Assembly (NCBI GenBank): GCA_021813445.1
Contig: JAKAKP010000090.1
Coordinates: forward strand, 1 to 64,000
Source: Deltaproteobacteria bacterium
GTDB lineage: Bacteria; Desulfobacterota; Desulfobaccia; Desulfobaccales; 0-14-0-80-60-11
Reading direction: 5' to 3'
Length of the DNA stretch: 64,000 nucleotides
The position numbers and the translations under genes are program-made. Positions 4,784-53,441 of the stretch are shown in pieces (position 1 is the stretch's first letter; each line of letters opens with the position of its first letter). Under the pieces are notes generated by a model. The model did not search any database. It was not told the DNA's origin and saw only the letters and a list, made by a program, of their open reading frames with translations.

Positions 4784-5926
4784 TCATTGCCCCTGGGAGA
4801 CCGCTTTTTTCAGGATTTCGCAGACCCGGGCCACTTTCCCTTCCGTCAGCTTGGGATAAAGGGGCAGGCTGATGGTTCTTTGGCCGATCTGGTAAGCCGC
4901 GGGGAAGTCCTCAGGCCGGTAGGCGTAGCGCTCCCGGAAATAACGGAGCACGTGCACGGCCCGGTAATTGACGGCGCAGCCCGCTCCTTGTTCCTGCACG
5001 GATTTGATGACTTCATCCCGGTCCAGCCGCGGCGGCAAAAGCACGGTGAACAGATGGTGCCCGCTCACTTCCCCCGGGACCGGGGCCTCCAGAAAATCCA
5101 GGCCCTCCACGTCCGCCAGCAACTCCCGGTAAAGGTTTTCCAAATCCTGGCGCCGCTGGCGCAAGGCGTCCAGGCGATCGATCTGATTCAGGAGCAGGGC
5201 CGCCTGGATGTCGTCCATGTTGTACTTCCAGCCCATCATCTCCATGTCCCAATGTTCGTATTTCTTGGTATAGCGGTCTGCGGCGTTTTTGGAGATGCCG
5301 TGATGCCGGGCCGAGCGGTACCAGGCCGCGTCTTCCGGGGAACTGCACACCAGGGCCCCTCCTTCCCCGCACGTCATGCTCTTGGTGGGATAAAAGGAGA
5401 AGCAGGCCGCGGCGCTGAGCTGACCCGGCCGCACCTGATCCCGGCTGCCTTCCAGGCAATGGGCCGCATCTTCCAAGAGTACCAGGCCATGTTTGGCCGC
5501 CACCCGGGCGAAGCCCCGCATGTCCACCATGCGGCCGTAAAGGTGCACCGGCAGGATCGCCCTGGTCTTGGGTGAGACGGCCGCGTCCACGGCTTCCGGG
5601 AGCAGCAGCCCGCTTTTGGGGCAGACATCCACAAAGACCGGGGTAGCCCCCGCCTCCAGGATGGCCGTAGCCGTAGCCACAAAAGTCATGGGGGTGGTGA
5701 TGACTTCATCCCCCGGACCGATGCCGTGCTTCAGGAGGACCAGGTGCATGGCCCCGGTGCAACTGGTCAGGCCCACCGCCTCGGGGCTGTCCAGATACTG
5801 GGCGAATTTCTTTTCGAAAGCCGCCACCTGGGGGCCGGTGGTGAGAAAGAGGGAGCGCAGCACCTGGTTGGCCAACTCCAGGTCTTCTTCGGTCAGATTG
5901 TGTTTGAAGAATTCGATTTTTTCCAT
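4784..5926 (-). CDS. DegT/DnrJ/EryC1/StrS family sugar aminotransferase
   Basis: A PLP-dependent aminotransferase of about 380 residues that converts a keto-sugar nucleotide to an amino-sugar. The internal-aldimine lysine is in FSFYPTKSMTCGEGG (K182), and the PLP-ring aspartate is in LEDAAH (D153). An in-frame extension to 5998 exists, but it reads as a basic, family-unlike peptide; ATG at 5926 (MEKIEFFKHN) gives the normal family start. A 165-base spacer separates it from the downstream end of the flippase gene. It is one of three family members in the locus, and its sequence differs clearly from the WbpE-like one at 18302-19423. Confidence 0.88.
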   Translation of the reverse strand: MEKIEFFKHNLTEEDLELANQVLRSLFLTTGPQVAAFEKKFAQYLDSPEAVGLTSCTGAMHLVLLKHGIGPGDEVITTPMTFVATATAILEAGATPVFVDVCPKSGLLLPEAVDAAVSPKTRAILPVHLYGRMVDMRGFARVAAKHGLVLLEDAAHCLEGSRDQVRPGQLSAAACFSFYPTKSMTCGEGGALVCSSPEDAAWYRSARHHGISKNAADRYTKKYEHWDMEMMGWKYNMDDIQAALLLNQIDRLDALRQRRQDLENLYRELLADVEGLDFLEAPVPGEVSGHHLFTVLLPPRLDRDEVIKSVQEQGAGCAVNYRAVHVLRYFRERYAYRPEDFPAAYQIGQRTISLPLYPKLTEGKVARVCEILKKAVSQGQ

Positions 5927-6090
5927 TATGCGCCTGGATCGGTTTTTGGGGATGCTAAGCCGGCATAAAGGTGCTTGGGGCCGGCTGCAGCGATTCAATC
6001 GAAATCATTTAATGTTACTATAACCTAAATAAATCAGGGCGGTAATTTAGAAAATCGTTAAATTGGGAGCCGGGGGCGGAGCCGCGACCT

Positions 6091-7617
6091 TCAAGGCTTC
6101 TGCTCCGGCCCGCCTGTACCCCTGGAGATGGCCCTGCGCAAGATAGCCATGGTCTCGCTTATCTCGTCCCGCTGAATTGCCCCGGAATATCTGGAGATGA
6201 TCACCAGAAACAGCGCCACTGCCAGGCTGCGCACTCCCAAATGCCCGGTTAGTTGCGGGAAGGGAGAAAGGTCGATGAGCAACATCAGGACCAGGTAGGC
6301 GAGGCCCAGGAAAACCAGGGGCTTGACCTCAAAGGGGATGAAGTATTGCCGTTGGTTGGTCAGGAATACCGCTCCGGTCAGGATTAACTCGATGCACACC
6401 GTGGCATAGGCTGCGCCCTGAATCCCCCAAGTCTTAATGAGGATGAAGTTGACGGGCAGACTGAGCAGGGCCGTGACCCCATAAGCCCAGATGAGATGGT
6501 AGGTCTTGCGGGCGATGAGCAGCCCCAGCCCGAAAGTGGTCCTGAGGCTGCCGATCCATAAGGCTAAAAGCAGCGGTCCCACCAGCTTGGAGGCGCCAAA
6601 ATATTTGGGACTGCCCACGATCAATTGCACCAGCGGGTAGGCGAACAGGAACATGCAGGTGGCCGCGGCCATGCCGATCAGGGCATAAACCCGGGACACC
6701 GCGGCATAGATGGAGTTGACTCCGGGCAGCTGCTGGATGGACAACGCATACGGGTAGTAGGTAATATTAAAGGTAATATCCAGAAAGAGGAGCACCGAGC
6801 AGATTTTGAGCCCTGCGGCATAAACCCCCGTGTGGCTCAGACCCACCAGGTTGACCAGGAAAATCCGGTTGATATTGGGCAGGAGCATATTGACGGCCCC
6901 GGCCAGGGCAAAGGGAATCCCCAAGGCCATCACGGCCCGGACGTCCCCCAGGGCAAAACCTGCAGCCAGATGCCGGGACACCGACCATAAGCCGATGACA
7001 GCAAACGCCGCGTAGGACAAAAGCATGCCCAGGAGGACCCCCTTAGCTCCCAATCCCAGGCTGATCACCAATATCAGGTTCAAGACGGCAACCAGCAAGG
7101 AGAGGCCCATGGTGATAAACGCGAACCGCACCGGCTCATGTTTCCATTTGTGCAGGTTCTGGGAAAACGCGAACAATCCCTGGAGGGGCAGCATCAGCAA
7201 CATCAGCACCGTCAATCCCGCCAGATTGGGTTGGCCCAGCAGGGCCTTGCTGATGGGCGTGGACCACAAGACCAGGCCTCCGGTCAGGAGGCAGGACCAG
7301 ATAAATTGAAAAAGCAGGTTGGAGGTGATGACCCGGCGCTGGCGCGCCTGATCTTCAATCTGGAAAATTAAGGCCAACCCCGAATCGATGCCCAGGATGG
7401 CGATAATCACCAGGATGGAATTGAAAGTGAGGAGGACGTCCACCTGGGCATACTCGGCCGGAGCCAGCATCCGGGTGTAGAGCGGCAGCAGGAAGAAGGA
7501 GATGGCCCGGGAAATGATGGTCCCCAGGCCGTAAATCAGGGTGTCCCCCGTGAGCCTTTTCAGGACTTCCCTGAGGTCCGGGGCCAGGGGCGGCGCGGCG
7601 TCTGTTTGATTAGACAA
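6091..7617 (-). CDS. Polysaccharide flippase, Wzx/MATE-like
   Basis: A 508-residue polytopic membrane protein with about 12-14 hydrophobic segments. It begins with the flippase-type amphipathic start LKRLTGDTLIYGLGTIISR and has the SFFLLPLYTRML segment typical of polysaccharide-biosynthesis exporters (MOP superfamily). The expected role is to flip undecaprenyl-linked repeat units to the periplasmic face before polymerisation. Its start overlaps the last 8 bases of the upstream glycosyltransferase gene, indicating coupled translation. Together with the Wzy-like protein at 23788-25086 it points to a Wzx/Wzy-dependent pathway. Confidence 0.88.
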   Translation of the reverse strand: MSNQTDAAPPLAPDLREVLKRLTGDTLIYGLGTIISRAISFFLLPLYTRMLAPAEYAQVDVLLTFNSILVIIAILGIDSGLALIFQIEDQARQRRVITSNLLFQFIWSCLLTGGLVLWSTPISKALLGQPNLAGLTVLMLLMLPLQGLFAFSQNLHKWKHEPVRFAFITMGLSLLVAVLNLILVISLGLGAKGVLLGMLLSYAAFAVIGLWSVSRHLAAGFALGDVRAVMALGIPFALAGAVNMLLPNINRIFLVNLVGLSHTGVYAAGLKICSVLLFLDITFNITYYPYALSIQQLPGVNSIYAAVSRVYALIGMAAATCMFLFAYPLVQLIVGSPKYFGASKLVGPLLLALWIGSLRTTFGLGLLIARKTYHLIWAYGVTALLSLPVNFILIKTWGIQGAAYATVCIELILTGAVFLTNQRQYFIPFEVKPLVFLGLAYLVLMLLIDLSPFPQLTGHLGVRSLAVALFLVIISRYSGAIQRDEISETMAILRRAISRGTGGPEQKP

Positions 7618-42826: not shown

Positions 42827-43576
42827 ATGTCCGGCCATTCCAAGTGGAGCACCATCAAGCGCAAAAAAGGAGCCCTGGACGCCAAGCGGGGCAAGGTCTT
42901 CGGCAAGCTCTCCAAGGAGATCACCGTGGCCGCCCGGATCGGCGGGGGCGACCCCACCGGCAATTCCCGTCTCCGGGCGGCGATTGCCGCGGCCAAGGCG
43001 GAAAATCTGCCCAAAGACACGATTATGAAGGCCATCCGCAAGGGCAGCGGTGAAGGCGGGGGCGCGGCCCTGGAAGAAATCGTCCTGGAAGGCTACGGCC
43101 CCGCGGGCGTGGCCCTGATGGTGGAGAGCCTCACCGACAACAAAAACCGCACCGTCTCCGATGTGCGCCATCTCATCACCAAATACGGCGGCAACCTGGG
43201 GGAGCCCGGCTGCGTGGCCTGGATGTTTGACAAAAAGGGGGTCATCGTCTTCGACCGGGAAAGCGTCAAGGAGGACGAACTCCTGGAAGCCGCGCTGGAA
43301 TGCGGTGCGGAGGACCTTCAGAGTGATGAAACGCAGTTCGAGGTTCTCACCGACCCCACCGGCTTTGTGGAGGTCAAGGAGGCCCTGGAAGCCCAGGGCT
43401 TTCAGCCCGTGCTGGCCGAATTGCAGCTGCGCCCCAAGACTACGGTGCGCATCGATGAGGAAAAACCCGCGCAACAGGTCCTGAAGCTGGTGGAGATGTT
43501 GGAAGAGCATGACGATGTCAACAATGTCTTCGCCAATTTCGACATCCCGGACCAGCTCCTGGAGGCCTTGATGTGA
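42827..43576 (+). CDS. yebC: YebC/PmpR family protein (transcription/translation regulator)
   Basis: A 249-residue protein of normal length. [20 protein letters not shown] is the diagnostic start, with GRDPTGN-like [19 protein letters not shown] and [20 protein letters not shown] in the middle. Family members act as regulators or as helpers that relieve ribosome stalling at proline runs. AGGAG lies 8 bases upstream. Its stop overlaps the ruvC GTG start. Confidence 0.95.
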
Positions 43577-44052
43577 GCCAGGTGATCCTGGGAGTGGACC
43601 CCGGCTCCCGGGACACCGGGTTCGGGGTCATCCAGGAGGCGGGGCAGCAGATCCTGCACCTGGCCTCCGGGCGCATCCACGCCGCCCGCCCTCCGTCTCT
43701 GGAAAATCGCCTGCGTCAAATATATGACGGTCTGGTAGCCCTGATCCAGGAGCACCAGCCCCAGGCCGTGGCCCTGGAGGAAATCTTCCTGGCCGCCAAC
43801 GTCAAGAGCGCCTTCACCCTGGGGCAGGTGCGGGGCGTGGTGCTGCTGGCCGCGGCCCAGGCCGCGATTCCCATTTTCCATTACCCTCCGGCCACCGTGA
43901 AAAAAACGGTAGTGGGCTACGGCCAGGCCACCAAGGCCCAGGTGCAGCTGATGGTGGCCCACCTGCTGGGGGTCAAAATCACCAACGAACACGCCGCGGA
44001 CGCCCTGGCCGTGGGCGTCTGCCACCTCTTCCACAGCCGCTGGCCGGGATAA
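43573..44052 (+). CDS. ruvC: Holliday junction resolvase RuvC
   Basis: A 159-residue endonuclease resolving Holliday junctions. The acidic active-site residues are in [30 protein letters not shown] and [13 protein letters not shown]. The GTG start overlaps the yebC stop (GTGA). In most relatives ruvA and ruvB follow at once; here ruvA is 8.8 kb away and ruvB is not in the window. Confidence 0.95.
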
Positions 44053-44281
44053 GGACTTGCATCGGTCCGTTGTTCCGCTCAGAGTTTGCTATCTGCTTTT
44101 TCACGTCTGCGTGATAAGAGAAGGAATTGGCAAGATATCAGCCTCCTCACTTCCTGAATATTACTGGTTCGTCACTTATAATCGATAATTTGCCAGCTAT
44201 AGACACTGTTTCGGGATCTCGTGAACGGCTGGGGAAAACCATGCTCAATCTTTCGGAATTTTTTCCCGACTATTTGTCTGC

Positions 44282-44303
44282 AGGGAGTGGATAATCACTC
44301 CCT
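44282..44303. other. Palindrome AGGGAGTG / CACTCCCT after ruvC
   Basis: A perfect 8-base inverted repeat with a six-base loop. It is 230 bases past ruvC and lacks a good T-run, so a terminator role is doubtful. The remaining sequence from 44053 to 44530 is A/T-rich and shows no gene. Confidence 0.4.
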
Positions 44304-44534
44304 GGTCGTTTTGAAGGGAAAGAGCCAAATATTTATCGAATAACGAATAAATGTCGATAAAAAGATTTAAGCTTACCTTTTGTTAAGCTGGTCAGGGATA
44401 GTTTAACAGTCAAAACAGCAACTTCTAATTAACCCCGCCAACCTTAGTTTTCAGCAGTAACCAGGCCTTGAGGCCATTCTCATTTTTGCAAAATTGGTCA
44501 CCCTGAAAAATTAACCATATTATTGGGGAGTCAT

Positions 44535-45163
44535 ATGGCTAATCCTTATTCCTTACGCCCTGAGCCGGTTACGACGCTGACCTATAATGATGGGGGTTAG
44601 TGACGGCTGCCACCGAACCCTTCGGCCGCCAGGCGCTTTTCGAATATGACGGCAACCGCAATCTTACCAAGATTACCGATATGGGCGGTTATGCGTCAAG
44701 CTTGACTTATGAACCGGTCCACAACTTTATCACCAATATCGCCAATGCCCGGGGTACCTGGCAATTCAACACCGAACCCGCGGACTACCTGAATCAAAAT
44801 CCTGATGGCAGGGCTATCAACGCCTATCCGCCGCCAGAGGATACAATGGGGAATAATTACCGCATTACCGTCACCAATCCCCTGGGCTCCAGGAGGAATA
44901 CTATTATTGCGCAGGAGCTCCATCATCATGGCATGTCAGGCCCGCGAATTATGTCGATTATGTTGATTTGAACCGGAGCAATTATACCTCTCCCAAAACC
45001 CGTATCATCTGGCCACTGTATCGGCTAATCCTCTTGACAGCCCGGTGATTACCCAGATTGACCTCCCTGGAGGAGGATCGAGGACAAGTAGAGGATTCGG
45101 ATTCAAAAACAGAGACCATGGGGTCTTTTCCCTAGACAAAGAGGTACTCAAAACCATTTTTTG
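44535..45163 (+). pseudogene. Rhs/YD-repeat protein remnant
   Basis: An ATG at 44535 with GGGGAG upstream begins MANPYSLRPEPVTTLTYNDG and stops at 44597-44599. Another frame from 44600 reads FGRQALFEYDGNRNLTKITD, a clear YD repeat of Rhs/wall-associated proteins, and continues to 44971. A third frame beyond 44990 (YHLATVSANPLDSPVIT) ends near 45163. Functional Rhs proteins are usually above 1000 residues, so this is debris with several frameshifts. Confidence 0.65.
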
Positions 45164-45242
45164 ATTGTGGTGGCCGAGGTTACCGCATCATCTCAGTTAC
45201 AGGCAACATGCTCCCAGGGATATTTTTCAGGAGGAGTTCCAC

Positions 45243-46484
45243 ATGAACGCCAAGAAATGGGCAATAATCCTGGTTCTGGGCGCAGTTGTTCTTCACCTCG
45301 GGGACCGGCCGGTTTTGGCCCGACAAGCCGTCATTGCCGACCACCTGGCCCCGACGGCCTATTCCTCTATTCCCGACAAGTACATCCAGCAGGCCATTTC
45401 GCAGTTTAACCTCTTTTACGGCCACACCTCCCACGGCAGCCAAATCGTCACCGGGCTGGAAATGCTGCAGGATGCCACACACTTTTTCTACCCCGCGGAA
45501 GAAACGGGACCTGACCTGGGCTACTATCCCGACTGGGTCAACATCACCCGAACCCGCCTCAATCAACCCGGCAACGACATCAATATGGTGATGTGGTCCT
45601 GGTGCGGCCAGGTATCATGGAGCAGCCAGGAAGAGATCGATACCTATCTTCAGACCATGAATAAGTTGGAACAGGATTTCCCCCAGGTGATCTTCATCTA
45701 TATGACTGGGCATACCGATGGGTCCGGCATCGACGGCAACCTCAACGTCCGCAATAACCAGATTCGGGATTATTGCCTGAAAAACGGCAAAGTCCTCTTC
45801 GACTTTGCCGACATCGAGAGCTGGAATCCGGCCGGCAGCTATTTCCCCAATACCAGCGATGACTGCGGCTGGTGCAGCGACTGGTGCACCAGCCATACCT
45901 GCCCCGACTGCGGCGGCTGCGCCCATTCCCATTGTTTGAACTGCTACCTCAAGGGCAAGGCCTTCTATTGGCTTTTAGCTCGGTTGGCGGGTTGGAACTT
46001 ATCCATCACCATCACCGCCAGCGCTGGAGCCAACGGCGCCATCTCGCCCTCCGGCGTCGTGGCGGTGGACTACGGGGCCAGCCAGACCTTTACTATCACC
46101 CCAAACAACGGCTACCATGTTGCCGATGTCCTGGTGGACGGCTCTTCGGTAGGTGCAGTTACCAGCTATACCTTTAACAATGTCACTAGCAACCACACCA
46201 TCTCTGCCACTTTCAGTAATATTACCTACACCATCTCAGCGAGTGCGGGGGCTAACGGGTCTATTTCGCCCGTGGGTACGGTATCCGTGAACCCTGGAGG
46301 CTCACAGACCTTTAGTATCACTCCCAACCGCGGCTACCGCATTGCTAGCGTGACGGTAGACGGCGGTTCAGTCGGCCGAGTGCAGAGTTATACGTTCAGC
46401 AACGTCAGTGTCAACCATACCATCACGGCCAGTTTTGCCAAAAATAGACCTCTTTCATATTTAAACCTGTTGCTGCGAAATTAA
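45243..46484 (+). CDS. Secreted protein with two InlB B-like (Flg_new_2 type) repeats and a Cys-rich N-terminal domain
   Basis: A 413-residue exported protein. ATG 45243 follows AGGAGG and gives a clean signal peptide (MNAKKWAIILVLGAVVLHLG, cleavage near VLA-R). Residues about 28-250 form an unassigned domain with LFYGHTSHGSQIVTGL and FIYMTGHTDGSGIDGN, reminiscent of SGNH-type hydrolases, and a cluster of nine Cys plus His (CGWCSDWCTSHTCPDCGG). Two beta repeats of about 70 residues follow (ITASAGANGAISPSGVV, ISASAGANGSISPVGTV). No sorting signal is visible at the end. Confidence 0.75.
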   Translation: MNAKKWAIILVLGAVVLHLGDRPVLARQAVIADHLAPTAYSSIPDKYIQQAISQFNLFYGHTSHGSQIVTGLEMLQDATHFFYPAEETGPDLGYYPDWVNITRTRLNQPGNDINMVMWSWCGQVSWSSQEEIDTYLQTMNKLEQDFPQVIFIYMTGHTDGSGIDGNLNVRNNQIRDYCLKNGKVLFDFADIESWNPAGSYFPNTSDDCGWCSDWCTSHTCPDCGGCAHSHCLNCYLKGKAFYWLLARLAGWNLSITITASAGANGAISPSGVVAVDYGASQTFTITPNNGYHVADVLVDGSSVGAVTSYTFNNVTSNHTISATFSNITYTISASAGANGSISPVGTVSVNPGGSQTFSITPNRGYRIASVTVDGGSVGRVQSYTFSNVSVNHTITASFAKNRPLSYLNLLLRN

Positions 46485-46609
46485 AGCCCATGTGGGTGTA
46501 TGGAACTTAAAGAAAGATGTGAGTAAACCCGACAAAAATGGAACAAAACTAAGTACCTGTTAACTTTGCAAATTAATCCATAATCAAAAGAGAGAAAAGA
46601 AAGAGGAGG

Positions 46610-46800
46610 TGACCTGCCCTCCGGAAACTGACCCGCATTTTAAGATAGAGTGGCAGTTGGAAGGCAGGCGGGAATACTAGCAGGAAAAGGTATGCCCAGA
46701 AGCAGATCGTTGGAAAAGATGGTAAATGCAAAGGTCCTTCCTGCAGAGCCAACAGCAAACTATCCGAAGTGCGGATCACTGCTATTTATCCATTAAATCA
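46610..46800 (+). mobile_element. Decayed IS3-family end with orfA remnant
   Basis: TGACCTGCCCTCCGGAAACT at 46610 resembles an IS3-family terminal repeat. Downstream, 46682-46717 reads RKRYAQKQIVGK, and the next frame reads KMVNAKVLPAE. These match the start of IS3 OrfA (KRYTxEQIVxKLREAEVLLAE) across a frameshift. No orfB or right end is seen. The assignment is from memory of the family and is moderate. Confidence 0.45.
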
Positions 46801-46997
46801 AAAAAATTATATCGATAATCCATATGGTTGTGTTATCAACCGGCAGGCTATCTGGCCCAGGTTCACCTGTCCACCTTCTGCGCCCTGGCCAGGCATCCTG
46901 CCCGGTCCGTTGCGGGGGCACCCGGCCGTCGGGCTGACTTAATTTTCCCCTAAAGTTTACTTGACTGTTTTACGAAGCTGTGGTTTAAGGAGAGTAG

Positions 46998-47060
46998 ATG
47001 GTTACACTCTTGGAGCCGCGGAGCTTAGCGGCAAAGAGAGAGGTTTTTCTCCAACAGTAA
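46998..47060 (+). CDS. Possible 20-residue leader peptide upstream of the Spy-like gene
   Basis: ATG 46998 with AAGGAG 5 bases upstream encodes MVTLLEPRSLAAKREVFLQQ. A TTGACT box lies at 46959-46964, with a weak -10 about 17 bases on. It could be a leader peptide, or chance; the rest of 46801-47206 shows no gene and may be a long 5' leader. Confidence 0.3.
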   Translation: MVTLLEPRSLAAKREVFLQQ

Positions 47061-47206
47061 CTGGAACAAGGTAACGCCCGGGTTCCGAAAAATCCATTAA
47101 ACGCTCCCAGAATAATTCTGTCTCCGGGCGCTCCGGAGGGGAACAGAAGGACCGCTGGGACCCCTCAGAAACTGGATGTCCAGCATCTTGCTAAAGGGAG
47201 GATAAG

Positions 47207-47683
47207 ATGAAAGGTAAGGTCATTTTCAAGGTGGGATTACTCTGCGCTATCTTGAGTCTGGTGCTGGTGGTCCCGGTCTTGGGGCAATCGGATGTGGAAC
47301 TGGGGAAACAGCTTAAGGATTATAAGGCTCAGACCTACAAGGACCTGAAGCTTGACGCCAAGCAGGTCAAGGCGCTCATGGCGGTAGAAGATAAGTGTTC
47401 CATGCAGCGCGCAGAAATCGTCGCAGCTTCCAAAAAGGCCTGGGATGATCTGCTGGCAGCCTTAAAAGAGAACAAGCCTGACGATGCCAAGATTAAGAAA
47501 CTGGTGAGCGCTTACATTAACGAGCAGGCCAAGTTGTTCAATTCATTCAGTAGCCAACTCAACGAGGAACTGGCGCAAATGACTCCGGTGCAGCAGGGCA
47601 ACTATCTGGTGGCCATGGAGAAATGGCGCGAGAAATGTATGCCCAAAGTCTGCATACCGATTACTAAACCGGCTCCTAAATAG
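47207..47683 (+). CDS. Spy/CpxP-like periplasmic protein
   Basis: A 158-residue protein with a signal peptide (MKGKVIFKVGLLCAILSLVL, cleavage after VLG) and an all-helical mature part rich in Lys, Ala and Glu. Helix-capping segments LKLDAKQVKALMAVEDKC and LAQMTPVQQGNYL resemble the L-T-x-x-Q motifs of Spy/CpxP-type chaperones and metal-resistance proteins. AGGGAGG lies about 6 bases upstream. It directly precedes the W-X-N peptide gene by 92 bases and may help handle or tolerate the exported product. Confidence 0.6.
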   Translation: MKGKVIFKVGLLCAILSLVLVVPVLGQSDVELGKQLKDYKAQTYKDLKLDAKQVKALMAVEDKCSMQRAEIVAASKKAWDDLLAALKENKPDDAKIKKLVSAYINEQAKLFNSFSSQLNEELAQMTPVQQGNYLVAMEKWREKCMPKVCIPITKPAPK

Positions 47684-47775
47684 AATTGCCGGTACTCCAA
47701 CCAGGACCGCGAATAAGCAGATTTTTAACTTACAGAAACGCCTGTCTGCCGAGGGTGAGACAGTAAGGGGAAGTC

Positions 47776-47970
47776 ATGGCAGGAAATCTTGAAGATAAAA
47801 AAGTTAAAAGTGAGGTCCTAAAGGAAATCCTGGAGGAGATCCGTCAGGAAGAAAAAAAGCGGGTCGGATTTCCCTTCTGGGGTAACTGGGGTAACTGGGG
47901 TAACTGGCGCAACTGGAGAAACTGGCACAACTGGCACAACTGGCGCAACTGGTTTAATTGGTGGACGTGA
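47776..47970 (+). CDS. Candidate RiPP precursor with nine Trp-X-Asn repeats
   Basis: A 64-residue peptide. Residues 1 to about 30 form a charged amphipathic leader (KSEVLKEILEEIRQEEKKR). After GFPF comes an unbroken run of nine W-X-N triplets (X = G, G, G, R, R, H, H, R, F), closed by WWT. The start has AAGGGG 5 bases upstream. Three-residue cyclophane enzymes of the radical SAM/SPASM class join an aromatic ring at position 1 to the beta carbon at position 3 of such triplets. Two such enzymes and an exporter follow downstream. The core would be cationic and Trp-rich. Function and modification are inferred; the repeat and gene order are seen directly. Confidence 0.8.
   Translation: MAGNLEDKKVKSEVLKEILEEIRQEEKKRVGFPFWGNWGNWGNWRNWRNWHNWHNWRNWFNWWT
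47878..47958 (+). repeat. Nine-copy, 9-base tandem repeat (TGGNNNAAC/T) in the precursor core
   Basis: Each unit is TGG, a variable codon, then AAC (AAT in the last). First and third codons are fixed, and the middle codon varies in blocks (GGT three times, then CGC, AGA, CAC, CAC, CGC, TTT). This fits slippage followed by selection at the first and third codons. Confidence 0.9.
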
Positions 47971-48035
47971 GATAAGAAGCCATTTAAACGGGCTCCATCT
48001 CCTGAGCGCTGCTAAAGATACGGGGACGACTTGGA

Positions 48036-48060
48036 CTTTTGCTGCGCTCAGAATGATTAT
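48036..48060. repeat. Partial copy of the dispersed CTCAGAATGA element
   Basis: TTTGCTGCGCTCAGAATGATT lies in the 214-base gap between the precursor and the first radical SAM gene. I see no gene in this gap; an internal promoter or processing site could lie there. Confidence 0.55.
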
Positions 48061-48184
48061 TTCTGGGGCTCACCTAGATTTGACCAAGGCAGCGGCGATC
48101 CGGATTCCCATCAGAAATAATTTGGCCTTGTGCTTTTCCAACGCCGGACTATAAGTCCAGTACCACCCCTTTCTTTGTAATTTC

Positions 48185-49450
48185 ATGCCGGAACATCTCT
48201 CCCATAACCAACCATGCCTTCCCGAGGGGGAGGCACGGCTGCCGGTGGTGCCCCAAATCCAGGTGACCCGGAACTGCAACCTGGCGTGCGGCTATTGCTT
48301 CCAGGAGCATGCCGGGGGGATCATCAGCCTGGCCACGGTGGAAACGATTCTGCAGCGGGTAATCGCCCATAATCTGGCGGTTGATCCTCTCAACCCGGTC
48401 ATCCAGGTTTACTGGCATGGCGGTGAGCCCCTCCTGGCAGGCCGCGATTTTTTCCGGACCATCATCGACTTAGAGTCCCAGTATCCCCAGCTTACCTTCG
48501 AAAACCGCATCCAGACCAACGGCACCCTGATGACCGAGGAACTGGCCCGCTTGTTTGCCGAACACCGGTTCCAGTTGGGCTTCAGCCTGGATGGGCCCAA
48601 GGAGATCCACAATCGCTACCGCTGCTTGCGCGGCTCCCGCTATGGGTCGTTTGATGACGCTAGGCGCGGCCTGGAACTGTACCGGCATCACGCCAGGGTA
48701 GACCGGGTGGCGGTGATCGCGGTGGTCACCCGGGCTGGCATCGGCCGGGCCGCGGAGCTGTTTCACTTCTTCAAAGAATTGCAGGCCGAGGTGCAACTGG
48801 ATATCTATGATGTGCGCTGGCTGGACCTGCTGCCGGGGGGCCGCGAGGGGGGAGAATTGCCGGACCTGGCCCCCCTCCCGGAAGAGGTTGGACGGTTTCT
48901 GATTGAATTGTTCGACCTCTGGTTTTATGACCAGGATCGGCAGGTGGATTTCAAGGAGTTGCGGCAAGAAGTGAAAATGGTGCTGCAGCCGGAACTAAAG
49001 CTGGGAGACCCCTTCGACAAGAAACGCTGCGACTTCCGGCGCCTGATTTTCGCGCCCGATGGCCAGGTATTCAGCTGTGACCAATGGGTGAATGATGCCC
49101 AAACGGCCCTGGGGGAGATCCACCGGGACTCCCTGGCGGACATTTTAGAGCGCAAGGCCGCGCTCTGGGAAAAGATCAAGCAAAGAATCCGGGGCTCCGG
49201 GGCGCAGATGGCCTGCGGCAGTTGCGAGTGGGGCCAGCAGTGTGGCGGCGGCTGTTTCACCTGCATGAAATATAACGCCATGCTGCTGCGGGCCCGGGCC
49301 GCGGGGCTGCCTGACAGCCGCTGGACCGACGTGGCCCTGCCCCCGGCTTGGGAGGAGATCCGGGGGGAGACGTACTATTGCCGGGGATTGTGGGCTTTTC
49401 GCCGCCACGTGCGGGAAGCCGTGCGGCGGGAGCTCGCCCATGCCGGTTGA
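48185..49450 (+). CDS. Radical SAM/SPASM peptide-modifying enzyme 1
   Basis: A 421-residue enzyme. The [4Fe-4S]-SAM motif CNLACGYC has Cys31, Cys35 and Cys38. HGGEPLL (78-84) and FSLDGP (133-138) follow the anSME/PqqE-like pattern. The SPASM domain holds auxiliary-cluster cysteines C282, C298, C344, C347, C353, C357 and C360 (CGSCEWGQQCGGGCFTC). Such enzymes act on ribosomal peptides or on sulfatases; no sulfatase gene is nearby, and the W-X-N peptide lies just upstream. No separate PqqD-like recognition protein is encoded. The ribosome site before ATG 48185 is weak. Confidence 0.88.
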   Translation: MPEHLSHNQPCLPEGEARLPVVPQIQVTRNCNLACGYCFQEHAGGIISLATVETILQRVIAHNLAVDPLNPVIQVYWHGGEPLLAGRDFFRTIIDLESQYPQLTFENRIQTNGTLMTEELARLFAEHRFQLGFSLDGPKEIHNRYRCLRGSRYGSFDDARRGLELYRHHARVDRVAVIAVVTRAGIGRAAELFHFFKELQAEVQLDIYDVRWLDLLPGGREGGELPDLAPLPEEVGRFLIELFDLWFYDQDRQVDFKELRQEVKMVLQPELKLGDPFDKKRCDFRRLIFAPDGQVFSCDQWVNDAQTALGEIHRDSLADILERKAALWEKIKQRIRGSGAQMACGSCEWGQQCGGGCFTCMKYNAMLLRARAAGLPDSRWTDVALPPAWEEIRGETYYCRGLWAFRRHVREAVRRELAHAG

Positions 49451-50549
49451 TGGCCCTGAGGCCTTTACCCTGATCCTGGAGCCGGTGCCAGGCTGCAATC
49501 TGCGGTGCCGTTACTGCTACTCCGACTGCACCGGGAGCGGCACTATGACCAGGCAGACACTGCGGACGGCTTTGGAAAAAACGGTCCGCTATGCCGCGGA
49601 CCAGGGGTTCCGGGAAATACATCTCCTCTGGCACGGGGGGGAACCCCTGCTCGCGGGCCTCGATTTTTTCAGAACTGCCCTGGAAATCCTGGCAGGGTTG
49701 ACCCCGGACCTGAGCTGCCGGCATTATCTCCAGACCAACGGCCTGCTCCTGGATGATGATTTCTGTGACTTTTTCCGCGACTACGAGTTCCAGCTCGGCC
49801 TTAGCCTCGACGGCCCCCAGGACTTGCACGACTCGATGCGCCTCGGCCCTGATGGCCGGGGAAGCCATGGGGCAGTGTTGGAAAAAGTGCGCCTGCTGGC
49901 ACGGCACGGGATGGCCCCGGGGTTTAACGCGGTCATTACCCGGGGGAGCCTGGGGCGGGAGCAGGAGATCTACCGGTATTTCCAGGGGCTGGGCCGCGGG
50001 TTCCGCGTCAACCCCGTGACTCCGGGGCTAAGCCCCGAGAACTCTATCGAATACTTGCTGCAGCCCGGGGAATACGGCAGGTTTCTCTGCCGCTTATTCG
50101 ACGCCTGGGTCGGCGCGGCCCGCCAGCGGGTCAGAGTGTCGCCCTTGGACCTGTACCTGCGGGCCCTTGCGGGTGGTGGCACATACGAATGCCAACAGCG
50201 GGAAACCTGTGTCGGCTCCTGCCTCGGGGTGAAACCCTCCGGGGATGCCGTCCTCTGCAACCGGTTCGAAACCCACCTCCTGGGCAATATCCTTGACCGG
50301 GAAATCGGGGAACTGCTGGCTGCTCCGATTTGTGAGGCTCTGCGGAGGCGGGCCGGGATGCTCTCAGCCTGCCACCCGTGCAGGTACTGGTCCATCTGCC
50401 ACGGCGGCTGCCCCCTCAACGCCTGGGTCTGCGGTCAAGACCTCCTGGCTAAGGACCCATTCTGCAAAGATTACCAGCTCATCTTTAACCACATCGAGCG
50501 CGCCCTGGCAGACCTGCAGAGAGAGCCGCACCCCCGGCCAGTACCATGA
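49440..50549 (+). CDS. Radical SAM/SPASM peptide-modifying enzyme 2
   Basis: A 369-residue enzyme, clearly related to but distinct from the preceding one. CNLRCRYC places Cys19, Cys23 and Cys26. HGGEPLL (65-71) and LSLDGP (121-126) follow. The SPASM cysteines are C257, C261, C273, C311, C314, C320, C324, C331 and C342 (CHPCRYWSICHGGC). Its ATG lies 11 bases inside the end of enzyme 1, and its own end overlaps the ABC gene, so the three proteins are made together. Two maturases may divide the core between them or install different bonds. Confidence 0.88.
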   Translation: MPVDGPEAFTLILEPVPGCNLRCRYCYSDCTGSGTMTRQTLRTALEKTVRYAADQGFREIHLLWHGGEPLLAGLDFFRTALEILAGLTPDLSCRHYLQTNGLLLDDDFCDFFRDYEFQLGLSLDGPQDLHDSMRLGPDGRGSHGAVLEKVRLLARHGMAPGFNAVITRGSLGREQEIYRYFQGLGRGFRVNPVTPGLSPENSIEYLLQPGEYGRFLCRLFDAWVGAARQRVRVSPLDLYLRALAGGGTYECQQRETCVGSCLGVKPSGDAVLCNRFETHLLGNILDREIGELLAAPICEALRRRAGMLSACHPCRYWSICHGGCPLNAWVCGQDLLAKDPFCKDYQLIFNHIERALADLQREPHPRPVP

Positions 50550-52225
50550 AATCCTGGATCGCCCACATCATTTCCCGCTATCGCTGGCCTTTAATATTGG
50601 TGGTTAGCGTGCAGCTGGGCTGCGGCCTGCTGGTGGCGCTGCAGCCGCGCTACTATCAGCGGCTGGTCAGCCTGGCCATAGAGGCTCAGCACGCCAATCT
50701 CTGGAGCACGGGGCTACCCCTGATCCTGCAACTGGCCCTGATCTTTTTGGCCATCGCCGTGCTCCAGGGGCTGCTAGGCTATATTGCCAGCGTCTTTTCT
50801 TTCAACCTGCTCAAGGAACTGCAAGGCGAATTTTTCGAAAAGGCCAGCCACCTGCCGTTGTCCTATTTTCAGCAGCAATCCGCGGGCGAATTTTTCACCA
50901 AGTTCAACAACGATATCGGCCAGGCCCAGCGCTTTTTCGCGGATTTTCTGCCCAGTGTCGGGCGGGAACTCATCACCGCGCTGGTGGTGACCGGCATCCT
51001 CCTCTTTTCCTGCCCCCTGGCCCTGACCCTGGCGGCCCTGGGCATCGTGGCCGTGACCGCGGTGCTGGTGACTTTCCTCAACCGCATTATGGGGTTTTAT
51101 GCCCGGGCCCAACGTTCCGCATGGAGTGATATTCAGCGGGTCTTTGACGAAACCATTCAGGGCATCGACACCGTCAAGGTGCTGGCGGCTGAGGGCCAAC
51201 AAGCCGCCCAATTCCACCGGTACACGGCCGGCCTGAAGAAACTGGCCATCAAGGCCGGCGCGATCCTGTCGGTGTTTTCCCCAGGGATTGAGCTGCTCAG
51301 CCAACTGGGAGGGCTGGGATTGGTGGCCCTGGCCTATTACCTGATCGCCAGCGGCAGGATGCGTCTCGAGCCTTTTTTGCTGTTCTTCTTCTATGCCGCG
51401 CTCTTGCAGATGTCGGTGACCCAACTCACCAGGTTGTTGGCCACCGTGCAAACCGAGTTGACCGGGATGCGATATCTGGCGGGATTTCTCGCGGAAGCCC
51501 CGGAAATGGAAGAAAGCCACCCCCCGGTAACCCTGCCCCGCCAGGCCGTGGCCATCGAATTAACCGATTTGACCTTCGCTTATCCCGGCGGCCGGCGGCT
51601 CTATAACCACGCGCACCTGCTGATCCCGGCCAATGCCGTCACCCTGATTGACGGCCCCAGCGGCAGCGGCAAATCCACCCTCATCAACCTAATCCTGCGC
51701 CTTTATGCCCCCGAGGCCGGGGTCATCACCATCGGCGGCATCGACATCCGCCGCCTGTCACGGACCGAGCTGCGCCGGAAAGTGGGAGTGGTCACCCAGA
51801 ATCACTTTATTTTCCAGGAAACCCTGCGGGACAACCTCCTCATTGCCCAGCCTGACGCCAGCGACCCCCGGATTTTGCAGGCCCTGGAACGGGCGCAACT
51901 GCATGACTTTGTGGCCCGGTTGCTCCAGGGCCTGGACACCGTCATGGACCCCCGGGGCGCCGGGGCCAGCACCGGGGAGCGGCAGAGGATTTGCATCGCC
52001 AGGCTGCTGTTGCGGGAGTCACCCATCATGATCCTGGATGAACCCTGGTCCAACCTGGACGACCGGGCCCGCACCCTCCTGGCCGAGGTCATCAACTCCT
52101 GTAAACGGAGCGCCACCATTTTGATTCTCAGCCATGAGCGCCATCCGGCCCTGGCGGTGGATCAACTCTACCATTTAGACGGGACCCAAGGGATTTTGAT
52201 CCGCGAGGACCCTCCGGCCGCTTAA
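50546..52225 (+). CDS. ABC exporter (fused membrane and ATPase domains), probable peptide exporter
   Basis: A 559-residue half-transporter. Residues 1 to about 310 hold six membrane helices of the type I exporter fold. The ATPase has Walker A GPSGSGKST, Q-loop VVTQNHF, Walker B IMILDEP, D-loop SNLDD and H-loop ILSHE. The signature is ASTGER instead of LSGGQ. There is no N-terminal C39 peptidase domain, so leader removal must come from elsewhere. ATG 50546 overlaps the previous stop (ATGA). Confidence 0.88.
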   Translation: MKSWIAHIISRYRWPLILVVSVQLGCGLLVALQPRYYQRLVSLAIEAQHANLWSTGLPLILQLALIFLAIAVLQGLLGYIASVFSFNLLKELQGEFFEKASHLPLSYFQQQSAGEFFTKFNNDIGQAQRFFADFLPSVGRELITALVVTGILLFSCPLALTLAALGIVAVTAVLVTFLNRIMGFYARAQRSAWSDIQRVFDETIQGIDTVKVLAAEGQQAAQFHRYTAGLKKLAIKAGAILSVFSPGIELLSQLGGLGLVALAYYLIASGRMRLEPFLLFFFYAALLQMSVTQLTRLLATVQTELTGMRYLAGFLAEAPEMEESHPPVTLPRQAVAIELTDLTFAYPGGRRLYNHAHLLIPANAVTLIDGPSGSGKSTLINLILRLYAPEAGVITIGGIDIRRLSRTELRRKVGVVTQNHFIFQETLRDNLLIAQPDASDPRILQALERAQLHDFVARLLQGLDTVMDPRGAGASTGERQRICIARLLLRESPIMILDEPWSNLDDRARTLLAEVINSCKRSATILILSHERHPALAVDQLYHLDGTQGILIREDPPAA

Positions 52226-52334
52226 AGGGCCAGGCGGCCCTGGACTATCGGCTTGCTGGCAGTCCGCTGGGAGCTGGTTGAATTTCTAGCCAAGTGCCTT
52301 ATACCAAGTTGCCATCAAAAAGGTGGGGAATGTC

Positions 52335-52388
52335 GGGGCGAACCTTGTGTTCGCCCATCAGCGCCTGGGCGAACACAAGGTTCGCCCC
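52335..52388. repeat. Palindromic GGGGCGAACCTTGTG repeat
   Basis: Arms GGGGCGAACCTTGTGTTCG and its complement flank a 10-base loop. Single-arm or paired copies recur at 56175-56200 and 63868-63933. It lies in the 634-base gap between the ABC exporter and ruvA, which has no gene. Confidence 0.85.
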
Positions 52389-52459
52389 TACGAGAAAATA
52401 CTTTTTTTGATTACGCATTGGTATTAGAAGCCATGAGACCTTTGCGAAAGTCGCCCAAC

Positions 52460-52553
52460 TTGTCATTCTGAGAGAGCGGAGCGACCGAAGAATCTCAAGT
52501 ATTCCAACTAAATACGAGAATCTTCACTCCACTGCGCTCCGGTCAGAATGACG
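52460..52553. repeat. Dispersed inverted repeat, TGTCATTCTGAG / CTCAGAATGACA class
   Basis: The left arm TTGTCATTCTGAGAGAGCGG and the right arm ending CCGGTCAGAATGACGG face each other, with AATCTC and GAATCT inside. This is the fullest copy of the element class listed at 10926-10999. Confidence 0.8.
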
Positions 52554-52618
52554 GAAAAAAAGACTTTCGCAGAAATCTCGCCATTTCAAAACCTAAACCG
52601 GCCTTAACCTATCAATCT

Positions 52619-52681
52619 GAGCGGAGCAAGAATCTCGTTTTTCCGGAGCCTGGAGATCCTTCACTGCGTTCAGGATGACAG
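52619..52681. repeat. Second adjacent copy of the TCTGAGCGGAGC element
   Basis: It begins GAGCGGAGCAAGAATCTCG and ends CACTGCGTTCAGGATGACAG. With the copy at 52460-52553 it fills most of the gap upstream of ruvA. Confidence 0.7.
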
Positions 52682-52859
52682 AAAGAGAGGTTTTGAAATT
52701 GCTTATAGGTTAATATCCTCTGTCGACTAGTATGTCCCACTTCCGTAGAAGGAGAAAATATACCTGGACTTGGGGCCGACTTTTGCATTAGAACTCCAGA
52801 AAAGAGTTGCAGGTCAGGTCCGGGATGTACTCCCCCTGACCGGCTGTGAGAGGGACTGC

Positions 52860-53441
52860 ATGATCGGTTTTCTGGAAGGCGAACTCTTTGACAAGACTCC
52901 TGTTAGGGTCACCATCAAAGTGGGGGGCGTGGGCTACTTGGCCCAGATACCCTTGTCTACTTTTTACGCCCTGCCCGAGCCTCCGGCCCCGGTGAGCCTG
53001 CACATCCATACCCGCATCCAGGACGACGCGCTCAATCTCTACGGTTTCCTCACCCATGAGGAAAAAGACATGTTCCTCCGGCTCCTGGACATTCCCCGCA
53101 TCGGCCCGGGCTTGGCTTTAAAAATCCTCAGCGGCATCTCCCCCCGGGACTTCGAAGAGGCCCTGTCCTTCAGCGACTCCCGGCGCCTGGCGAATATCCC
53201 CGGCATCGGCAAGAAGTCCGCGGACCGCATCCTCCTGGAATTGAAAGGCAAGGTGATCATCACCCCCCGGGTCCGGCCCGGGGTGGCGGGGGACCGTCCC
53301 TACCAGGACGCTCTTTCCGCGCTCATCAACCTGGGCTACCCCCGCAATGTGGCGGAGAAGGCCCTGGATACCGCCCGCAGCCAGGGCGCGGCCACCCTGG
53401 AAGACCTCCTGCGCCAGGGCCTGAAAGTATTGGCAAAATGA
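52860..53441 (+). CDS. ruvA: Holliday junction branch migration protein RuvA
   Basis: A 193-residue protein that binds Holliday junctions and loads RuvB. MIGFLEGELFDKTPVRVTIK is the normal start, so ATG 52860 is used although the frame opens at 52770. The two helix-hairpin-helix motifs are PRIGPGLALKILSGI and IPGIGKKSADRILLEL. The C-terminal RuvB-binding domain has ALINLGYPRNVAEKAL. No ruvB follows. Confidence 0.94.
   Translation: MIGFLEGELFDKTPVRVTIKVGGVGYLAQIPLSTFYALPEPPAPVSLHIHTRIQDDALNLYGFLTHEEKDMFLRLLDIPRIGPGLALKILSGISPRDFEEALSFSDSRRLANIPGIGKKSADRILLELKGKVIITPRVRPGVAGDRPYQDALSALINLGYPRNVAEKALDTARSQGAATLEDLLRQGLKVLAK

Follow-up and report, generated by a model that had tools for sequence, protein, structure and literature searches.

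The window analysed here is the whole 64,000-nucleotide stretch of the contig, and it carries five genes on the forward strand that we treat as one cassette. They run in the order Spy-like protein, precursor, E1, E2 and ABC exporter, with overlaps of 11 nt between E1 and E2 and of 4 nt between E2 and the exporter gene. The cassette and the sequence features of its precursor are as follows.

47207..47683, + strand: Spy/CpxP/CnrX-like secreted four-helix protein (from its predicted fold), 158 aa, upstream of the precursor in five cassettes
47776..47970, + strand: precursor peptide, 64 aa by ORF translation, with leader at about residues 1-31 and core at about 32-64; kept in five genomes
47878..47958, + strand: (Trp-X-Asn)9 array, precursor residues 35-61; W and N kept and X variable in five genomes
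47959..47967, + strand: C-terminal Trp-Trp-Thr, identical across all five precursors; putative tenth triplet
48185..49450, + strand: E1, radical SAM/SPASM enzyme, 421 aa, CNLACGYC (Pfam/NCBIfam models, alignments)
49440..50549, + strand: E2, radical SAM/SPASM enzyme, 369 aa, CNLRCRYC (Pfam/NCBIfam models, alignments)
50546..52225, + strand: MsbA-like ABC exporter, 559 aa, Pfam ABC_membrane and ABC_tran; 76-80% identity to relatives

Organisation and distribution of the cassette

The original prediction described a four-gene RiPP system at this locus. Its 64-residue precursor with a charged leader and nine WXN triplets was borne out, as were the final position of the ABC exporter and the overlaps among the last three genes. 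The RiPP assignment also found support, but the prediction missed the gene directly 5' of the precursor (47207-47683), which occupies that position in all five cassettes and brings the count to five genes. A small precursor with a retained leader and a repeat core, together with co-occurring enzymes and an exporter, is the arrangement that characterises RiPP cassettes. Comparative genomics gives good support to reading the locus as a RiPP cassette in which a WXN precursor is combined with an exporter and two radical SAM enzymes.

Scanning 84,980 species (one genome each) with E1, by a method that reaches close relatives only, returned four close relatives at 77-82% identity. All four are Deltaproteobacteria or Syntrophobacterales metagenome-assembled genomes (G009, G013, G016 and G021 of the family set), and in all of them a WXN precursor with 7-9 units lies just 5' of E1. 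Gene-neighbourhood comparison, named in the original prediction as a check, recovered the same order in five genomes, even with the cassette divided between two contigs in G021 and a contig end falling inside the ABC gene in G013. The cassette enzymes are 69-82% identical among carriers of the same family. E1, the WXN array and E2 were found in an identical set of five of the 22 family genomes, and the situation that would have spoken against the prediction, enzymes kept where the peptide is absent, did not occur. A profile search with the precursor recovered five copies only among the family genomes (E 1e-31 to 1e-34), the next match lying at 0.026.

In the window the cassette sits between ruvC (43573-44052) and ruvA (52770-53441). 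In most relatives yebC, ruvC and ruvA lie side by side. This is also the case in the other four carriers, which have the cassette at another site, beside unrelated genes. Its location at differing places across carriers suggests that it moves as a unit. The 8.7 kb that split ruvC from ruvA here (window 44052-52770) have a counterpart in the same-genus genomes G002, G003 and G006, where this gap is also widened, so the site is one at which insertions vary within the genus. A search for plasmid relatives of E2 found none at E 1e-40. We also considered an anti-phage system and rejected it, as matches were limited to generic radical SAM and ATPase cross-hits.

The precursor array and the Spy-like partner

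The precursor (MAGNLEDKKVKSEVLKEILEEIRQEEKKRVGFPFWGNWGNWGNWRNWRNWHNWHNWRNWFNWWT) proceeds from its charged leader through FPF to the nine triplets and ends in WWT, which may represent a tenth triplet. The pattern WXNWXNW matched a single site in the 4.18 Mb genome, the precursor locus, and the reversed pattern used as a control matched none. When residues were shuffled in the six-frame translation of the window, runs of W.N triplets never exceeded two. The precursor had no matching family in the NCBIfam or Pfam model libraries, and contiguous WXN arrays did not turn up in a search of the open-access literature.

Comparison of the five genomes, with 9, 8, 8, 7 and 8 units (40 in total), revealed a strict division of constraint within the triplet. 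Trp was encoded by TGG in 40/40 units and Asn was kept in every one (36 AAC and 4 AAT codons), while the X position was filled by G, R, H, S, W, F or L through 12 codons. Variation in the array was limited to the X codons and silent Asn sites, and pairwise dN/dS of the precursor ranged from 0.04 to 0.40. The precursor evolves under coding selection, and the codon pattern indicates that selection holds W and N in the array. Array length probably shifts through gain and loss of 9-bp units. The core, predicted to be cationic, is mildly so, with a net charge of +3 computed from its sequence. Between the precursor and E1 lies a spacer of 214 nt in the window; this spacer is long and variable, contains repeats in some genomes and is partly missing in one, which gave little reason to expect a conserved RNA structure there. 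Scans for promoters and terminators returned nothing exceeding shuffled sequences.

The product of the first gene was predicted to have a signal-like N terminus followed by four helices (mean pLDDT 76). CnrX, ZraP, CpxP and Spy recurred in a fold search with this model (best E 0.015), and the score against Pfam Metal_resist was below the cut-off; the resemblance to Spy/CpxP/CnrX proteins is suggestive only. Homologs are present in 21 of the 22 family genomes, and the copies from cassettes form a separate clade in the tree (support 100/99), so the gene travels with the cassette. A dedicated secreted partner of this kind would be unusual in a RiPP cassette and would point to periplasmic handling or self-protection. 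Outside cassettes, Spy-like homologs often adjoin genes for small secreted Tyr-rich proteins (loci L112, 3785-4177 and 4824-5030; L115, 6262-6699; L116, 2784-3296; L117, 6263-6787). It is possible that Spy-like proteins pair more widely with aromatic-rich exported peptides.

The two radical SAM/SPASM enzymes

Both enzymes carry the CX3CX2C motif and match Pfam Radical_SAM; the start codon of E1 is uncertain, its ribosome-binding site not being clear. The original prediction of a SPASM domain in each stood for E1, whereas in E2 the Pfam SPASM match fell below the cut-off, though SPASM-type cysteines are present in the alignment. The closest sequence with a solved structure is the anaerobic sulfatase-maturating enzyme 4k37, and alignment with it placed the sulfatase-maturase Cys-Asp pair at C298-D299 of E1. 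The Asp beside this SPASM Cys is the proposed catalytic base of the anaerobic sulfatase-maturating enzyme. In E2 the corresponding position is Asn (N, S or C in relatives). Conversely, the first SPASM Cys is present in E2 and missing from E1 in 5/5 genomes, and one auxiliary Fe-S cluster of E1 may have three Cys ligands and another residue, or an open site. Neither enzyme combines Cys-Asp with the full SPASM Cys set, the hallmark of sulfatase maturases. As the two differ in these active-site and SPASM-Cys residues, we infer that they probably do different jobs.

E1 and E2 are about 31% identical to each other, and dN/dS among the cassette enzymes was 0.16-0.34 in the five genomes. An origin by recent duplication inside the cassette was not supported, since the trees separate the two, with weak support at depth. 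Deep nodes were weakly supported and branches long, and the trees gave E1 and E2 no firm position among cyclophane formers. Outside the cassettes, E2 relatives from this phylum reached at most 35% identity. We scanned ten of them with TIGR03942, and their scores of 411-490 bits mark them as true sulfatase maturases.

Searching the enzymes against family models, a further check named in the original prediction, did produce matches to cyclophane-maturase models, but all of them below cut-offs. The top NCBIfam model for both was DynA (NF041298; 181 bits for E1 and 239 for E2, cut-off 450), followed by the anaerobic sulfatase maturase model TIGR03942 (173 and 222, cut-off 349). DarW, AmcB, FxsB, XyeB, YhhB (113 and 133, cut-off 445) and GrrM/OscB (110 and 131, cut-off 310) ranked lower, each under its cut-off, and HxsB gave 72 and 64 bits (cut-off 370). 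Neither enzyme passed the cut-off of any curated NCBIfam model.

Proposed product, known systems and competing explanations

Several known systems resemble parts of this cassette. In triceptide systems (XncB, OscB/GrrM, MscB, YxdB, HaaB, YhhB), a radical SAM/SPASM enzyme is likewise encoded beside a short aromatic-X-X precursor, and in all five cassettes such a precursor adjoins a radical SAM/SPASM gene. XncB and OscB are proven to act on Trp-X-Asn, where they form a C-C bond between the beta-carbon of Asn at i+2 and either C6 or C7 of Trp (PMC11002830); because these enzymes make exactly that link, a Trp-Asn i,i+2 cyclophane is the best inference for the product. The cassette differs from triceptide systems in its 7-9 contiguous triplets, its two divergent enzymes, its Spy-like secreted protein and the failure of its enzymes to pass any triceptide model (GrrM/OscB, XyeB, FxsB, YhhB, AmcB). 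As far as the evidence goes, the cassette would work like a triceptide system, and its membership of that class is putative.

Dynobactin (DynA) and darobactin (DarE) have Trp cross-links and peptide export in common with the proposed cassette, and DynA supplied the top model. In both systems one enzyme makes the links, and the precursor core is short and lacks a repeat array. Anaerobic sulfatase maturases (TIGR03942) belong to the same enzyme subfamily as E1 and E2, with 4k37 nearest and Cys-Asp shared with E1; in contrast to them, the cassette contains no sulfatase, E2 lacks the Asp and E1 lacks one SPASM Cys. Elements of the arrangement have precedents elsewhere, as Aro-Xaa-Asn precursors adjoining radical SAM enzymes and multiply repeated substrates such as TVGG are already known (PMC9062424). 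In the TvgA/TvgB poly-cyclopropylglycine RiPP, a radical SAM enzyme of the sulfatase-maturase type iterates on a tandem motif (PMC9062424); there the repeat is TVGG, the ring forms within Val, and one radical SAM enzyme acts with an oxygenase, whereas we propose Trp-Asn links. The His-Xaa-Ser system (HxsB/HxsC, named in PMC9062424) also joins a triplet-repeat precursor to two radical SAM enzymes, but its motif differs and E1 and E2 score low on HxsB.

We consider it probable that the five genes form a triceptide-like RiPP cassette whose array carries W(i)-N(i+2) cyclophanes, and likely that such cyclophanes arise at several or more of the WXN units. Reaction of both side chains would be expected to leave the pattern seen, with W and N kept in all 40 units and X free. 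The sub-cut-off matches of both enzymes to cyclophane-maturase models and the loss from E2 of the sulfatase-maturase Asp count in favour as well. The cassette also contains no sulfatase-like substrate. Against cyclophanes stand the enzyme scores, which are close to those of sulfatase maturases and under all curated cut-offs, the true sulfatase maturases among the nearest E2 relatives outside the cassettes, the weak deep support in the trees and the lack of a cassette protease. In the proposed pathway, E1, E2 or both would bind the charged leader and connect an indole carbon of Trp(i) with the Asn(i+2) beta-carbon, so that three-residue cyclophanes form with 2 Da lost per ring. The untagged full-length precursor has a calculated monoisotopic mass of 8251.04 Da, which would fall to 8232.90 Da with nine rings and to 8230.88 Da with ten. 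E2 would be the likelier Trp-Asn cyclase; E1 may share in cyclisation or alter the peptide in another way, with the invariant WWT at its end and FP[F/Y]W as examples of sites. Since no protease is encoded among the cassette genes and a Pfam scan of the ABC protein found no peptidase domain, the leader would need to be removed, presumably near R29-F32, by a protease encoded outside the cassette. The product would then be exported by the MsbA-like protein, and the Spy/CpxP-like protein may handle it in the periplasm or protect the producer. That the product is antimicrobial, perhaps acting at the outer membrane like dynobactin and darobactin, is a guess.

Trp recurs every third residue and is as invariant as Asn, and the same array could carry another cross-link, either Trp(i)-Trp(i+3) or another Trp-centred C-C or C-N bond, with Asn serving in structure or recognition. 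A Trp(i)-Trp(i+3) C-N link does exist in cihunamide, though it is made by a P450 (PMC11002830), and the best-scoring model, DynA, comes from a system in which links of several types are formed. We nevertheless consider such a link unlikely, as Asn in 40/40 units is more than spacing requires and the characterised radical SAM enzymes with the nearest motif use the Asn beta-carbon. A radical SAM change to the array or the terminal Thr that forms no cross-link (epimerisation, oxidation or thioether-free desaturation) appears, if anything, slightly less likely still. E1 retains the Cys-Asp pair found in sulfatase maturases, enzymes that oxidise Ser or Cys, and the terminal Thr is invariant in five genomes, but this reading leaves the strict W-X-N repeat unexplained, and the presence of two enzymes with cyclophane-type model matches agrees better with cross-linking. 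For E1 alone the reading may be correct.

The two remaining alternatives deny any modification of the array. The peptide could be secreted unmodified, as a Trp-rich or metal-binding product, while the enzymes act on another substrate; the fold of its Spy/CnrX-like partner includes metal sensors, the array contains His, and the spacer before E1 is long and variable. This seems very improbable to us in view of the perfect co-occurrence of precursor and enzymes over 22 genomes, with no WXN precursor found without the enzymes and no other candidate substrate between the cassette genes. Lowest of all we rate a non-coding or simple-repeat artefact, an origin that WXN runs do have elsewhere. In 395 phylum genomes, three such runs occurred beyond the five cassettes. 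Two are simple repeats (L040, L042), the other lies antisense to a repeat within an autotransporter-like protein (L041), and the stretches examined around them contain no radical SAM gene. The viral-contig matches are of the same kind and likewise showed no similarity to the cassette enzymes. At this locus, by contrast, the leader is conserved, dN/dS is well below 1 and the array stands next to the enzymes in five genomes; shuffles, the genome-wide pattern search and the conservation pattern contradict chance or a repeat artefact.

If the Trp-Asn cyclophanes are confirmed, the product would carry a ladder of rigid rings whose length is unusual among natural peptides. The array raises the question of whether a single radical SAM enzyme is able to advance along a peptide, closing strained rings one after another into an uninterrupted ladder, and the five natural variants (7, 8 or 9 units) offer a ready test of iteration and direction. 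The freedom of X to vary would leave the array open to engineering. Steric constraints may restrict the closing of neighbouring strained rings at nine triplets in a row. We regard as doubtful the fullest version, in which one enzyme closes all nine WXN units iteratively and the other introduces a different ring or an oxidation at the terminal WWT; if true, it would yield a rigid exported aromatic rod with Spy-like periplasmic handling, a new architecture for cyclophane peptides.

Two further loci were noted during these searches. The only GrrM/OscB-family enzyme above the cut-off in the 395 phylum genomes (324 bits; L170, 33-2925) is flanked by a radical SAM-like ORF and a 108-aa ORF, and its SPASM Cys set appears reduced. 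In the Bacteroidales locus L013, a DynA-like radical SAM enzyme (5980-7089; 291 bits, below the cut-off of 450) adjoins two small ORFs rich in Tyr-X-Asp (5027-5164 and 5766-5972), making this locus a candidate Tyr-Asp cyclophane system.
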